DNA from: Peptococcaceae bacterium BRH_c4a
GTDB lineage: Bacteria > Bacillota > Desulfotomaculia > Desulfotomaculales > Desulfocucumaceae
Direction of reading: 5' to 3'
DNA length: 64,000 bases
NCBI GenBank assembly: GCA_000961585.1
Contig: LADN01000035.1
Location: forward strand, 62,001-126,000
The notes under the pieces are model-generated. The model saw nothing but the letters and a program-made list of their open reading frames with translations. It did not search any database and had not been told where the DNA came from. Position numbers and translations under genes: made by a program. The first letter of the stretch is position 1, and every line of letters begins with the position of its first letter. Of the stretch, positions 2,548 to 63,271 are shown in pieces.

Positions 2548-3129
2548 AGTCTCTACCCCCCCGGTTTACTTTCACTTTTCCTTTTATCCCGGAAATCTTC
2601 AATTCCAGACCTTTTCCAAGTGCTGAAACAGCCGCCAACTAAAATCTACTGAATTTTAAAGCGGCGGCCGGAACGTACAAAATAAATTTGTGACGGTGAG
2701 GGCACTCATAACGTGCCTTATATATAAAAAAGCACGCATGGTGCTTGCCCTTATCTAACGCTTTCAGAGGAAGCTTTGAGGAAGCTTTTTTGAAACGCTC
2801 TTAACGGAAAGTCGGATACAGAGGAGAACTGTACTTTCCTAAGCGTTATAAAAAAACCGATGTACCCCTTCCTGACAGAATGATTATGCTGTAACTGACA
2901 GTAGGTTTTAGTCGGTGTGTGCACTAGATTGTATCCAGTATTATAGTTCTAGTCAGAATGAGAATTCCCTTCCAAACCCCATTAGAAAATAAAAAATATT
3001 TTCCGAACCATTAATAAGGAAAGGGGACACACCTCTCCAGTATGACTGCCTCCGGAGGTCAGAGGAATGTCCCCGATGCATAACGGCGGAATCCAGAATG
3101 AAAATCCCTGTGAGCCTGGGGCAACACCA
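2548..3129. other. 582-bp intergenic stretch with hairpins and a remnant of the dispersed element
   Basis: No coding frame with a ribosome-binding site was found here. The stretch should hold the terminator of the cysteine-cluster gene and the promoter of the apr-like operon, both leftward. Visible structures are GGCAC/GTGCC and AAGCAC/GTGCTT hairpins near 2700-2752 and an 11-bp tandem duplication of GAGGAAGCTTT at 2767-2792. ACTTTCCTAAGCGTTATAAA at 2833-2852 resembles the right end of the large dispersed element (ACTTTCCTAAACGATAAA). A stem-loop element also occurs at 3023-3074. Confidence 0.5.
3023..3074. repeat. GGGGACA...TGTCCCC stem-loop element
   Basis: Outer arms GGGGACA and TGTCCCC enclose an inner CCTC/GAGG pairing. 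It resembles, in size and in the GGGGAC terminus, the GGGGACGGTTC hairpins at 45255 and 48178. It sits downstream of the cysteine-cluster gene. Confidence 0.5.
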
Positions 3130-5184: not shown

Positions 5185-5325
5185 ATGGATACAATTGTTG
5201 AAAACGCTTTAAATAGTGAGAAATCTCAAAATTACGAAGGCGATATCTTGTCGAACATTGGAAAAATATTCAGAAATCCTTTTATCACCATGCTTAACCA
5301 GTTGAAGAATAAAAAAACGCCCTGA
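5185..5325 (+). CDS. small hypothetical protein, 46 aa
   Basis: ATG 5185 follows an AGAAGGGGG site. The product begins MDTIVENALNSEKSQNYEGD and ends QLKNKKTP. It is amphipathic with a short hydrophobic patch (IFRNPFITMLNQL) and no known motif. The stop codon lies inside the first hairpin of the dispersed element that begins at 5311, so the last codons come from the repeat. The original C-terminus may have been replaced when the element arrived. Confidence 0.5.
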   Translation: MDTIVENALNSEKSQNYEGDILSNIGKIFRNPFITMLNQLKNKKTP

Positions 5326-5773
5326 CGGGCGTTGCCGTCTTGCAGACGGCGGAATCCAGAAGCCAGAAGCCAGAATAGTGACAGCATGCCTTAAAAACGA
5401 CCCTCAAGAGACCCCACAGCGACATGCAGTGAGGGGGAGGGGTTTTAGTCCAGGCGGATGTTCCGGAGGCTGTTATCTGGCTCTTGGCGACAGAGCCGTA
5501 CGGACTGCCGAACCGGCTGCAGGACGCAGCCGGTAGCCGGAATCGACGCAAGGACGCGGCGTTGGAGGCGGTCGGCAGTCCGTTAGGCGACGAGCTTAGA
5601 GACAGTTGCAGCCGGAGGATAAGTAGATCGGACTCAAACCCCTCCACCGGCCACAGAGCGACCCCGGAGCGACCCCAGAAAAACTCTGGGCTTGCATAAA
5701 AATGCTTTGGTGCTTCAGTACTTCAGCGCTTTAATGCTTTAATGTGTCATATACTTTCCTAAACGATAAAAAA
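5311..5773 (+). repeat. dispersed composite element, copy 1 (candidate structured RNA or MITE)
   Basis: In order: an A tract and hairpins CGCCC/GGGCG and GCCGTC/GACGGC; three heptads ATCCAGA, AGCCAGA, AGCCAGA; the constant ATAGTGACAGC; a CCCTCA/TGAGGG hairpin; the closing stem GGAGGGGTTTTAGTCC (5436-5451) with GGACTCAAACCCCTCC (5630-5645); inner stem CGGACTGCCGA (5501-5511) with TCGGCAGTCCG (5572-5582); and hairpin CCGGCTGC/GCAGCCGG. The 3' part has GCGACCC repeats, hairpin CCCAGA/TCTGGG, six octads of the TGCTTTAA type, and the right end ATACTTTCCTAAACGATAAA. It contains no credible gene. Confidence 0.85.
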
Positions 5774-5808
5774 GCCTCTTTCCGGTGAACGTCCGGAAAG
5801 AGGCTTTT
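5770..5808. terminator. bidirectional Rho-independent terminator
   Basis: Sixteen-bp perfect arms AAAAGCCTCTTTCCGG and CCGGAAAGAGGCTTTT around TGAACGT. On the minus strand it ends the lipoprotein gene at 5863. Its A tract is shared with the right end of element copy 1. Confidence 0.85.
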
Positions 5809-13784: not shown

Positions 13785-14129
13785 ATGTTTAGCCTTAAAC
13801 CATACAGTGGAGATCTTAAAAATAAGGACGGCTGGATTGATCCGCAAGGAAACTTTTATGCCTGCGCCTATGAGTATCACTGGAGATTTGCCGATGCGAT
13901 GTGCAAGAAATTCAAATACCGGTTACAAAGCAGGTTTCTGTTCAACATGGACAGCGAGTATACCCTGGAGGTCAACGGGTGGGTTAAAATAAGCACGGGA
14001 AAGGTTCAGTTTCACAATGAAAAGCCCATTACTAAAAAGCAGATGGATTTCCTTTTCGATTATTTCGTTGCCAATGGAAAGGATATTAATGAATATAACA
14101 GGCTGATGGCCCGGCGCCATTCTGCATAA
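13785..14129 (+). CDS. hypothetical protein, 114 aa
   Basis: ATG 13785 lies 9 bases after GGGAGG; GTG 13776 overlaps that site and is less likely. The protein begins MFSLKPYSGDLKNKDGWIDP and is rich in aromatic residues (FYACAYEYHWRFAD, FKYRL). It has two Cys and no membrane helix. Tyr/Trp-rich proteins of this size occur in Desulfotomaculum relatives, but I do not recognise a named family. The 280 bp upstream hold the promoter region shared with the divergent phosphorylase gene; no riboswitch was recognised there. Confidence 0.6.
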   Translation: MFSLKPYSGDLKNKDGWIDPQGNFYACAYEYHWRFADAMCKKFKYRLQSRFLFNMDSEYTLEVNGWVKISTGKVQFHNEKPITKKQMDFLFDYFVANGKDINEYNRLMARRHSA

Positions 14130-14217
14130 TAAACCGCCTTGTCGACGGTGCCGTCTTGCAGACGGCGGAATCCAGAAGCCAGGAGTCAGGAGCCAGAATA
14201 GTGACAGGCAGTACCCG
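14127..14217 (+). repeat. dispersed composite element, left-end fragment
   Basis: Contains hairpins CCGCC/GGCGG-like and GCCGTC/GACGGC, then heptads ATCCAGA, AGCCAGG, AGTCAGG, AGCCAGA and ATAGTGACAG. It stops before the closing-stem arm. It begins at the stop codon of the preceding gene. Confidence 0.8.
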
Positions 14218-25633: not shown

Positions 25634-26139
25634 AAAAAAACGCCCTAACGGGCGTTGCCGTCTTGTAGACGGCGGAATCCAGAATTCAGAATTCAGAATT
25701 CAGAATGGTGACAGCATACTTTAAAAGTGACCCTCAAGCGACATGCAGTGAGGGGGAGTGATTTAAGTGCGGAATGTACCGGAGGCTGCTACTGTCTCTT
25801 AACGACCGAGCCTACGGAATGCCGAGCCGGCTGCAGGACGCAGCCGAGCCTACGGAATGCCGAGCCGGCTGCAGGACGCAGCCGGAAGCCGGAATCGACG
25901 CATGGATGCGGCGTTGGAGGCGGTCGGCATTCCGTTGGCGACCGAGTTTAGAGACAGTTGCAGCAGGAGGTTATGCAGGCCGGACTTAAATCGCTCCACC
26001 TACCCATTAGCGACAATGCAGCGACCCTCAAGTGACCCCGGAGCGACCCCGGAAAAACTCTGGGCTACATAAAAATGCTTTGGCGATTTAGCGCTTTAAT
26101 ACTTTAATATGGCATATACTTTCCTAAACGATAAAAAAA
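25634..26139 (+). repeat. dispersed composite element, copy 2
   Basis: Same order as copy 1. Four heptads ATCCAGA, ATTCAGA, ATTCAGA, ATTCAGA. The closing stem is GGAGTGATTTAAGT (25755-25768) with ACTTAAATCGCTCC (25984-25997), and the next stem ACTGTCTCT (25791-25799) with AGAGACAGT (25950-25958). The inner stem CGGAATGCCGA (25815-25825) is present twice because a 38-bp segment is tandemly duplicated (second copy 25853); its 3' arm is TCGGCATTCCG (25924-25934). Five octads precede the right end. It starts ten bases after the RMD1-like stop codon. Confidence 0.85.
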
Positions 26140-26230
26140 CGCCCTGCGGGCGTTGCCGCCTTTCAGGCGGCGGAATACAGAAGCCAGAATCCAGAATAGT
26201 GACAGCTTTCAGAGTTCTGAGTTCTAATGG
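26132..26230 (+). repeat. dispersed composite element, left-end fragment joined to copy 2
   Basis: Directly at the right end of copy 2 a second left end begins: CGCCC/GGGCG hairpin, GCCGCC/GGCGGC hairpin, heptads ATACAGA, AGCCAGA, ATCCAGA and ATAGTGACAGC. Two heptads of a different kind, GTTCTGA and GTTCTAA, follow. The GCCGTC/GACGGC hairpin of the other copies is here GCCGCC/GGCGGC, a paired change. Confidence 0.75.
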
Positions 26231-57748: not shown

Positions 57749-57900
57749 CACTGAAAATAGCAGAGTGCAGAAAAATCAAGATATACTGTGATATCAAAAG
57801 CTTTTTAGCCAGACAAAAGTCCTTATTTATATTATGTGCGGAGATGCGAATAATCGCAATAAGTGTATTTTTATCAGTTATTCATTATGAATGGATATAA

Positions 57901-58316
57901 AATAACCGCCTTGTCGGCGGTGCCGTCTTGCAGACGGCGGAATCCAGGAGCCAGAATCCAGAATCCAGAATAGTGACAGCATACTTTAAAAGTGACCCTC
58001 AAGCGACATACATTGAGGGGGAGGGGTTTTAGTCCAGGCGGATGCTGGAATAGTCGTCAGTCGTAGGACTTCAGACGTCGGAATAGTTTCATTTTACCTC
58101 TGGTCAAAAGACTTTAAGACCTACGACTGAAGACTGACGACCGACGACTGATACAGCCAGTTCAGCCGGAGGATAAGTAGATCGGACTCAAACCCCTCCA
58201 CCGACCACAGAGCGACCCCAGAAAAACTCTGGGCTTGCATAAAAATGCTTTGGTGCTTCAGTGCTTCAGCGCTTTAATGCTTTAATGCGGCATATGCTTT
58301 CCTAAGCGATAAAAAA
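57901..58316 (+). repeat. dispersed composite element, copy 3, with a different loop
   Basis: Left hairpins, four heptads (ATCCAGG, AGCCAGA, ATCCAGA, ATCCAGA), ATAGTGACAGC, and the closing stem GGAGGGGTTTTAGTCC (58020-58035) with GGACTCAAACCCCTCC (58184-58199) as in copy 1. The loop is replaced by heptads GTCGTCA, GTCGTAG, GACTTCA, GACGTCG and, inverted, GACCTAC, GACTGAA, GACTGAC, GACCGAC, GACTGAT. Six octads and the right end CTTTCCTAAGCGATAAAA follow and abut the island repeat. Confidence 0.85.
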
Positions 58317-58381
58317 CGTGCAGCCATTGAAACTACACGTTTTTTGCACTGGAGCTGGTGAGGGGATTTGAACCCCTGACC
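58309..58381. repeat. 73-bp direct repeat, island end distal to tRNA-Thr
   Basis: Identical to 62583-62655. It contains the AAAAAACGTG/CACGTTTTTT terminator and the last 32 bases of the tRNA (acceptor, CCA and T arm), so it is the displaced tRNA end expected at the far border of an integrated element. Confidence 0.9.
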
Positions 58382-58402
58382 GCTGATTGTTGGTAAGGTA
58401 GT

Positions 58403-58437
58403 TTGTTTAAACCGTTGAAATCGACGGGTTTAAACAA
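58403..58437. other. 11-bp-arm inverted repeat near the island end
   Basis: TTGTTTAAACC (58403-58413) and GGTTTAAACAA (58427-58437) around 13 bases, just inside the left border. It could be a terminator of the leftward genes or a recombinase-binding site; no T run follows on the minus strand beyond TTT. Confidence 0.5.
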
Positions 58438-62582: not shown

Positions 62583-62655
62583 ATAAAAAACGTGCAGCCA
62601 TTGAAACTACACGTTTTTTGCACTGGAGCTGGTGAGGGGATTTGAACCCCTGACC
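62583..62655. repeat. 73-bp direct repeat, island end at tRNA-Thr
   Basis: Identical to 58309-58381. It includes the 3' 32 bases of tRNA-Thr and its terminator; this copy belongs to the intact tRNA. Confidence 0.9.
62585..62619 (-). terminator. terminator of tRNA-Thr
   Basis: AAAAAACGTG and CACGTTTTTT arms; on the minus strand the stem ends in a T run five bases after the tRNA CCA. Confidence 0.8.
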
Positions 62656-62698
62656 TATTGATTACGAATCAATTGCGCTACCACTGCGCCACACCAGC
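62624..62698 (-). tRNA. tRNA-Thr (anticodon CGU)
   Basis: Acceptor GCTGGTG pairs with CACCAGC, then TCCA including encoded CCA. The anticodon loop TTCGTAA gives CGU (plus-strand ACG at 62664-62666). T arm GGGGTTCAAATCCCC. It serves as the integration site of the 4.3-kb island. Confidence 0.96.
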
Positions 62699-62848: not shown

Positions 62849-63271
62849 AAAATAACCGCCTTGTGGGCGGTGCCGTCTTGCAGACGGCGGAATCCAGGAG
62901 CCAGGAGCCAGGAGCCAGAATGGTGACAGCCTGCCTTAAAAGCGACCCTCAAGCGACCCCACAGCGACATGCAGTGAGGGGGAGTGATTTAAGTCCGTGC
63001 GGAATGTGCCGGAGGATGCTACTGTCTCTTAACGACCGAGCCTACGGAATGCCGAGCCGGCTGCAGGACGCGGCGTTGGAGGCGGTCGGCATTCCGTTGG
63101 CGACCGCGTTTAGAGACAGTTGCAGCAGGAGGTAATGCAGGCCGGACTCAAATCGCTCCGCCTACCCATTAGCGACCATGTAGCGACCCTCAAGCGACCC
63201 TGGAGGAACTAGCGCCGATAAGGCTTTAGCACTTTAATATGACATATACTTTCCTAAACGATAAAAAAAAA
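62849..63271 (+). repeat. dispersed composite element, copy 4
   Basis: Left hairpins, four heptads (ATCCAGG, AGCCAGG, AGCCAGG, AGCCAGA), ATGGTGACAGC. Closing stem GGAGTGATTTAAGTCC (62981-62996) with GGACTCAAATCGCTCC (63144-63159); inner stem CGGAATGCCGA (63045-63055) with TCGGCATTCCG (63086-63096). The loop is shorter than in copies 1 and 2 because a segment between two GGAYGCRGCG-like repeats is deleted. The CCCAGA hairpin and part of the octads are reduced; the right end is intact. Confidence 0.85.

Follow-up and report, generated by a model that had tools for sequence, protein, structure and literature searches.

TwoAYGGAY RNA domains at the apex of a dispersed, probably mobile palindrome of A/T-tracts and terminators in Peptococcaceae bacterium BRH_c4a

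TwoAYGGAY (RF01731 in Rfam) was described as a candidate RNA with no assigned function (Weinberg 2010, PMC2864571), for which binding by CsrA has since been proposed (PMC4333381). The consensus for CsrA is RUACARGGAUGU, with the core presented in an ANGGAN hexaloop (PMC7652899). Among mobile elements, those of the IS1202 family have TGT..ACA ends and target-site duplications (TSDs) that fall into three classes and reach 24–29 bp; for the long-TSD group the target is reported as not found (PMC10132070, PMC10045372). Here we relate these systems to a dispersed repeat in a 64,000-nucleotide stretch of the genome of Peptococcaceae bacterium BRH_c4a (contig LADN01000035.1; hereinafter the window). 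A preliminary description of the window had reported four full copies of a composite element with a single architecture, proposed as a structured RNA or mobile palindrome of an unrecognized family. We recovered four copies, starting at 5311, 25634, 57900, and 62850; however, the apex of the third is different, such that it lacks the full RNA part. Their anatomy is as follows:

5311..5773, plus strand: copy 1 of the composite element, including flanking A-tracts; the element proper stops at about 5766
5316..5333, minus strand: left-end hairpin AACGCCC-TGAC-GGGCGTT, terminator-like (minus-strand T-run); belongs to the element in this genome
5334..5350, plus strand: second left hairpin of copy 1, GCCGTCTTGCAGACGGC
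5351..5385, plus strand: CCAGAA-type microsatellite of copy 1, which differs among copies
5433..5451, plus strand: 5′ arm of the copy 1 closing stem, 19 nt, GGGGGAGGGGTTTTAGTCC
5461..5620, plus strand: RF01731 TwoAYGGAY domain (Rfam 48.4 bits, gathering 43)
5520..5526, plus strand: loop 1 of copy 1, CAGGACG, a CsrA-type GGA loop without the Y of AYGGAY
5549..5556, plus strand: loop 2 of copy 1, CAAGGACG, a CsrA-type GGA loop
5630..5648, plus strand: 3′ arm of the copy 1 closing stem, 19 nt, GGACTCAAACCCCTCCACC
5748..5766, plus strand: conserved 3′ terminus CATATACTTTCCTAAACGA, with 144 genomic copies at ≤3 mismatches
5768..5808, minus strand: locus-specific terminator hairpin AAAAAAGCCTCTTTCCGG...CCGGAAAGAGGCTTTT, adjoining copy 1
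14128..14207, plus strand: solo left end (head)
25634..26131, plus strand: copy 2, with an apical RF01731 match at 25861-25926 (39.7 bits)
26133..26206, plus strand: solo left end (head), directly adjoining copy 2
57900..58309, plus strand: copy 3, which keeps the ends and closing stem and has the TwoAYGGAY apex swapped for another palindrome
62850..63261, plus strand: copy 4, with a shortened apex and hairpins 1-2 partly deleted

The closing and inner stems read as earlier described in the four copies: copies 2 and 4 share the GTGATTTAAGT version of the closing stem, and the apical stem, CGGACTGCCGA/TCGGCAGTCCG in copy 1, is CGGAATGCCGA/TCGGCATTCCG in copies 2 and 4. The closing stem of copy 3 has 19-nt arms at 58017-58035/58184-58202, and copies 3 and 4 carry a left-end hairpin of a second type, ACCGCC..GGCGGT. 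In copy 2, the RF01731 match is shortened by a perfect tandem duplication of 38 bp within the apical stem (25806-25881). Another palindrome of ~75 bp (AAGGAAAGGGGACACACC...TGTCCCC) lies at window position 3016 and at five further loci (L034, L036, L049, L104, L169); it is often found 3′ of the same head hairpin, as a second REP-like family mixed in with the first. Near copies 3 and 4, the 3′ end of a tRNA gene (62627-62698), together with its terminator, is duplicated over 71 identical nt (58311-58381 and 62585-62655); the 4-kb stretch between the duplicates resembles an integrated element with a duplicated tRNA end at its borders, and a weak tmRNA match at 58356-58425 probably corresponds to the same duplicated tRNA end. 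When position 62585 was tried as a paralogous counterpart of the copy 3 insertion site, its right side was identical over 71 nt and its left similarity was non-significant (70/1000 shuffles); the copy 3 site is therefore supported at its right end only.

An Rfam search, which the preliminary description had named as a check, returned a match that explains the apical domain. The copy 1 apex lies over the RF01731 gathering score (48.4 versus 43 bits), ruling out an unknown RNA family, and that of copy 2, at 39.7 bits, falls under the cut-off of 43. The RNA domain is thus already known. What is new is its carrier, a dispersed palindrome without an ORF that has TwoAYGGAY at its apex: the impression of an unrecognized family stands for the composite element, its terminator preference, and its copy number, and the literature searched, with few subscription journals, held no prior account of the carrier, its amplification, or a duplication of terminator hairpins. 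The genome (3.49 Mb, 98 contigs) contains at least 115 RF01731 matches, 98 of which are over the cut-off. In the phylum, the domain is present in 51 of 398 sampled genomes, usually in multiple copies, and in none of 14 control genomes. A deeper count in 20 genomes found matches in 19 (e.g., 55 in G017, a member of the same order, 39 in G309, 29 each in G087 and G103, 28 in G016, 23 in G345, and a single one each in G001 and G005); congeners of the present genome have merely 1-9.

The fold of the copy 1 core (5430-5650), at –121.2 kcal/mol (z = –8.05), is far more stable than those of shuffled sequences, with none of 200 shuffles equally good. The earlier observation that stems change compensatingly between copies extends well beyond the window: in 24 aligned genomic copies (23 distinct), 15 of the 67 pairs are changed on both sides, against 7.3 ± 1.1 in shuffles, none of which reached 15 (0/500), and 78 distinct copies show both-sided changes in 16 of 61 pairs. 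Across the 24 copies, 97.9% of cells in the predicted 67-pair structure are paired, and its double-change signal disappears once the partner is slid. Many of the double changes represent a split between subfamilies, so that the independent events are fewer than the cells; nevertheless, compensations confined to single copies are also present. Mosaic copies (L020, L053) combine closing-stem arms from different subfamilies, which weakens this stem. Read as RNA, the plus strand of copies 1, 2, and 4 has a better fold than the minus strand, and paired positions hold more G.T than A.C cells (19 versus 5 in this genome and 13 versus 4 in G017, a small count), as expected of RNA read from the plus strand. 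These data show that conservation of the apex is of the RNA type.

Across genomes, CA(N)GGAYG is found in 33/34 cases for one loop and 31/33 for the other, on stems that never lose the innermost pair and form it with four pair types and up to 20 double changes; within this genome, both GGA loops are found in 75 of the 78 distinct copies. Those of copy 1, AGGAC and AAGGAC, are not strict AYGGAY. This loop conservation is partly ascertained, since RF01731 matches come from a model that already holds the loops. The domain displays the loops expected of a CsrA-binding RNA, namely ANGGAN-type GGA hairpin loops at two or more sites, and the loop sequence is that of the published CsrA site. Further, CsrA is encoded by 49 of the 51 RF01731 carriers, the present genome (G000, E=6e-23) among them, but by 236 of the 347 genomes without the domain (p=4e-6, for an association between lineages and hence confounded by them); the carriers lacking CsrA are G236 and G288. 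The loops on covarying stems, together with this co-occurrence, favor binding by CsrA. They would also suit a family of trans-acting host RNA genes, i.e., a CsrB/RsmZ-like CsrA sponge for which mobility is secondary and whose copies are kept by host selection: such a family could show two CsrA-type loops and covarying stems conserved across the phylum, along with CsrA in 49/51 carriers and both loops in 75/78 copies. However, more than 100 copies, tandem and nested ones among them, with ends that outlast a lost or replaced apex, are element-like, congeners retain only 1-9 matches, and no sigma-70-like promoter was found in copy 1. We hence regard the sponge as an improbable account of the family.

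Most copies span 390-530 bp and follow a set order. An A-tract and a hairpin of the AACGCCC..GGGCGTT or ACCGCC..GGCGGT type are followed by a GCCGTC..GACGGC hairpin and the CCAGAA microsatellite; GCGACCC 11-mers then precede the long irregular hairpin, which has TwoAYGGAY at its apex, and short hairpins lead from there to the terminus CATATACTTTCCTWAACGA. This 3′ terminus has 144 genomic copies against 4 for the control. Head and tail alone make up two of the copies (about 200 bp), and several others, including window copy 3, have another palindrome in place of the apex between the same ends. As the coreless and swapped-apex forms keep the ends, the ends and the apex are separable modules. In a set of five loci (L147, L151, L159, L161, L170), the palindrome GGAGGTTAGATGTTGGAAGTCGG replaces the TwoAYGGAY apex while the outer stem is kept, i.e., nested palindromes swap apices. 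Copies are tandem and nested in places; none of those we read contains a transposase-sized ORF, and in this genome the outer ends of the element showed no terminal inverted repeats. Like MITEs, the element is without coding capacity and occurs as many dispersed copies with common ends.

An A-run lies directly 3′ of the element end in 77 of 82 copies (random expectation 4%), and in this genome A-tracts alone recur on both sides of the copies. A perfect-stem hairpin begins within 12 nt of the 3′ end at 22 of the 56 ends that have no other repeat abutting, compared to 10 of 276 control TAAAA sites (p=3.5e-12); at 26 further ends the neighbor is another repeat with its terminator-like head hairpin, and about one third of ends have no such hairpin. 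Thus, the element often sits within the T-tract of minus-strand terminators, nested or in tandem. One copy (L030 1501-1983, G000:C36) lies not at a terminator but within an apparent RHS/YD-repeat coding sequence. Orthologous empty sites for the copies of this genome could not be recovered from the congeners G001 and G002, which offered no homologous flank. An intergenic position and the Rfam type Cis-reg might suggest a cis-regulatory RNA in the untranslated regions of neighboring genes; yet copies are often beside terminators, i.e., after genes, in unrelated contexts, and an informal look revealed no consistent downstream gene, which makes this role highly improbable. We instead consider that the feature probably belongs to a MITE-like, non-autonomous family of mobile palindromes that bear a GGA-loop RNA apex and insert at A/T-tracts and terminators. 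The structured RNA and the mobile palindrome that the preliminary description had posed as alternatives both find support, as one and the same object.

The relatives add an insertion signature. In G017, elements of about 260 bp with the ends CAGACTGTAGACAAA...TTTGTCGACACTCTG are each flanked by a directly repeated hairpin, a different one at every locus. The match between left and right flanks of 27 such elements has a mean score of 18.4, as opposed to 5.3 for cross-locus comparisons (maximum 9.5, n = 702), and 24 of the 27 loci outscore all 702 of these controls. The duplicated segments, mostly 20-26 bp and up to 32, fold for the most part as terminator-like hairpins; further loci repeat the duplication, and deletion forms of 50-115 bp retain the ends. 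The same hairpin duplication occurs in Desulforamulus putei DSM 12395 (NZ_FQUY01000003.1, L292 about 1690-1995), again around a form of ~260 bp whose ends are inverted repeats, and, in other families, in G090, G167, and G309. Inverted-repeat ends are clear in G017, G090, G167, and G309 (CAGA[CG]TGT[AC]GACAAA and variants); the ends of the element in the window genome differ from those in G017. Element-free orthologous sites in congeners, two loci in G055 and one in G039, have one terminator hairpin each, and at the L255 locus the stem of the element-free hairpin, AACACCCC/GGGGTGTTTT, is nearly that of the hairpin doubled in G017. The simplest reading is a target-site duplication of the whole terminator hairpin in the relatives. 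It was not seen in several other lineages (G016, G103, G116, G236, and G330, among others), and duplication is accordingly one of several insertion modes. At one G017 locus (L245), flanked by the duplicated hairpin AGCTGCACCAANAGTGCAGCT, the inner part is inverted relative to the ends, and in G090 (L201 1501-1656, 2272-2457) a 6S RNA gene is situated about 0.6 kb from a TwoAYGGAY element that has the hairpin duplication. At three loci (L230 and L231 in G298, L329 in G407), inverted GAGTCA..GGGGACGGTTCT palindromes bracket TwoAYGGAY elements, as if other machinery had moved the RNA core.

The duplications also bear on whether the palindrome might act as DNA, namely as a single-stranded hairpin acted on by a structure-specific enzyme, of the Y1/HUH (RAYT) type or another, with the GGA loops serving as recognition letters. 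Its size and conserved loops would befit such a substrate, the inverted GGGGACGGTTCT palindromes around the G298 copies are of the kind found beside a Y1 gene here, and the genome has two Y1_Tnp genes or fragments. HUH elements, though, are not known to make target duplications, unlike the copies in G017. The better fold of the plus-strand RNA in copies 1, 2, and 4 and the excess of G.T over A.C cells, albeit a small count, likewise speak for RNA, and the co-occurrence with CsrA would be left unexplained. We judge a DNA substrate unlikely, and retain the mobile palindrome with an RNA apex as the preferred reading.

As to the enzyme, a non-exhaustive search found no transposase with matching ends in the Y1 and reverse transcriptase (RT) loci of the genome itself or in 20 G017 regions. 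These regions, chosen around orphan inverted repeats as places for an autonomous G017 copy, contained short elements only, many with hairpin duplication. Y1/RAYT was rejected as the driver here, with two partial genes whose ends are not common to the element. The RT genes, located where contigs end, are fragments of group II intron type in which no common ends were seen. Group IIC introns insert downstream of intrinsic terminators; a group II intron or retron origin was set aside, as an Rfam scan of the window gave no group II family match. The best lead for the enzyme, and a lead only, may be the IS1202 family: the duplications in G017, mostly 20-26 bp, have the length of its long-TSD group. 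In the mechanism we propose, a trans-acting (DDE) transposase would mobilize the element via its ends; the element inserts at A/T-tracts and intrinsic terminators, sites at which the damage is probably slight, and has amplified here to over 100 copies; and in the relatives, insertion at a terminator hairpin leaves one copy of the hairpin on each side. A plus-strand RNA would be made and could bind a CsrA dimer through its two loops, and this binding might regulate or protect the element or act as a CsrA decoy. Tentatively, the elements may constitute a superfamily that recognizes the shape of terminator hairpins rather than their sequence, duplicates the whole hairpin, and engages CsrA through its own RNA. 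If so, host termination would survive on both sides of an insertion, and contact with CsrA would control mobility or host physiology. The duplication of hairpins unrelated in sequence from locus to locus would explain how many copies are borne without harm to transcription units. In addition, an Rfam family orphaned since 2010 gains a carrier and a testable partner, and terminator hairpins become a concrete candidate target for IS1202-type long-TSD elements that lack a reported one.

Several described systems share parts of this picture. Group IIC introns have a similar site, downstream of intrinsic terminators, but the element here has no group II Rfam match and no RT inside, and its relatives duplicate the target. 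Elements of the IS1202 long-TSD group resemble those of the relatives in a TSD of about 16-29 bp, TGT..ACA ends, and repeated end sites, the last seen in G017 as the left end TGTAGACAAAG / TGTAAAACAAAG; in the relatives TGT/ACA lies 5 nt inside the apparent ends, and the link is a candidate lead. The CsrA-sequestering RNAs CsrB and RsmZ likewise display GGA loops on hairpins (PMC7652899), whereas the putative RNA described here has two sites only, a different fold, and a mobile element as its setting. Bacterial MITEs are comparably short, ORF-less, palindromic, present in many copies, and mostly intergenic (reviewed in PMC10969869); in contrast to them, the present element bears an RNA fold conserved across a phylum, and its target in the relatives is the intrinsic-terminator hairpin, duplicated whole. 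Finally, RF01731 as published shares the two GGA-loop hairpins within a long irregular stem; presented there as a candidate RNA, it is found here as the apex of a dispersed and probably mobile palindrome with defined ends and up to more than 100 copies per genome.
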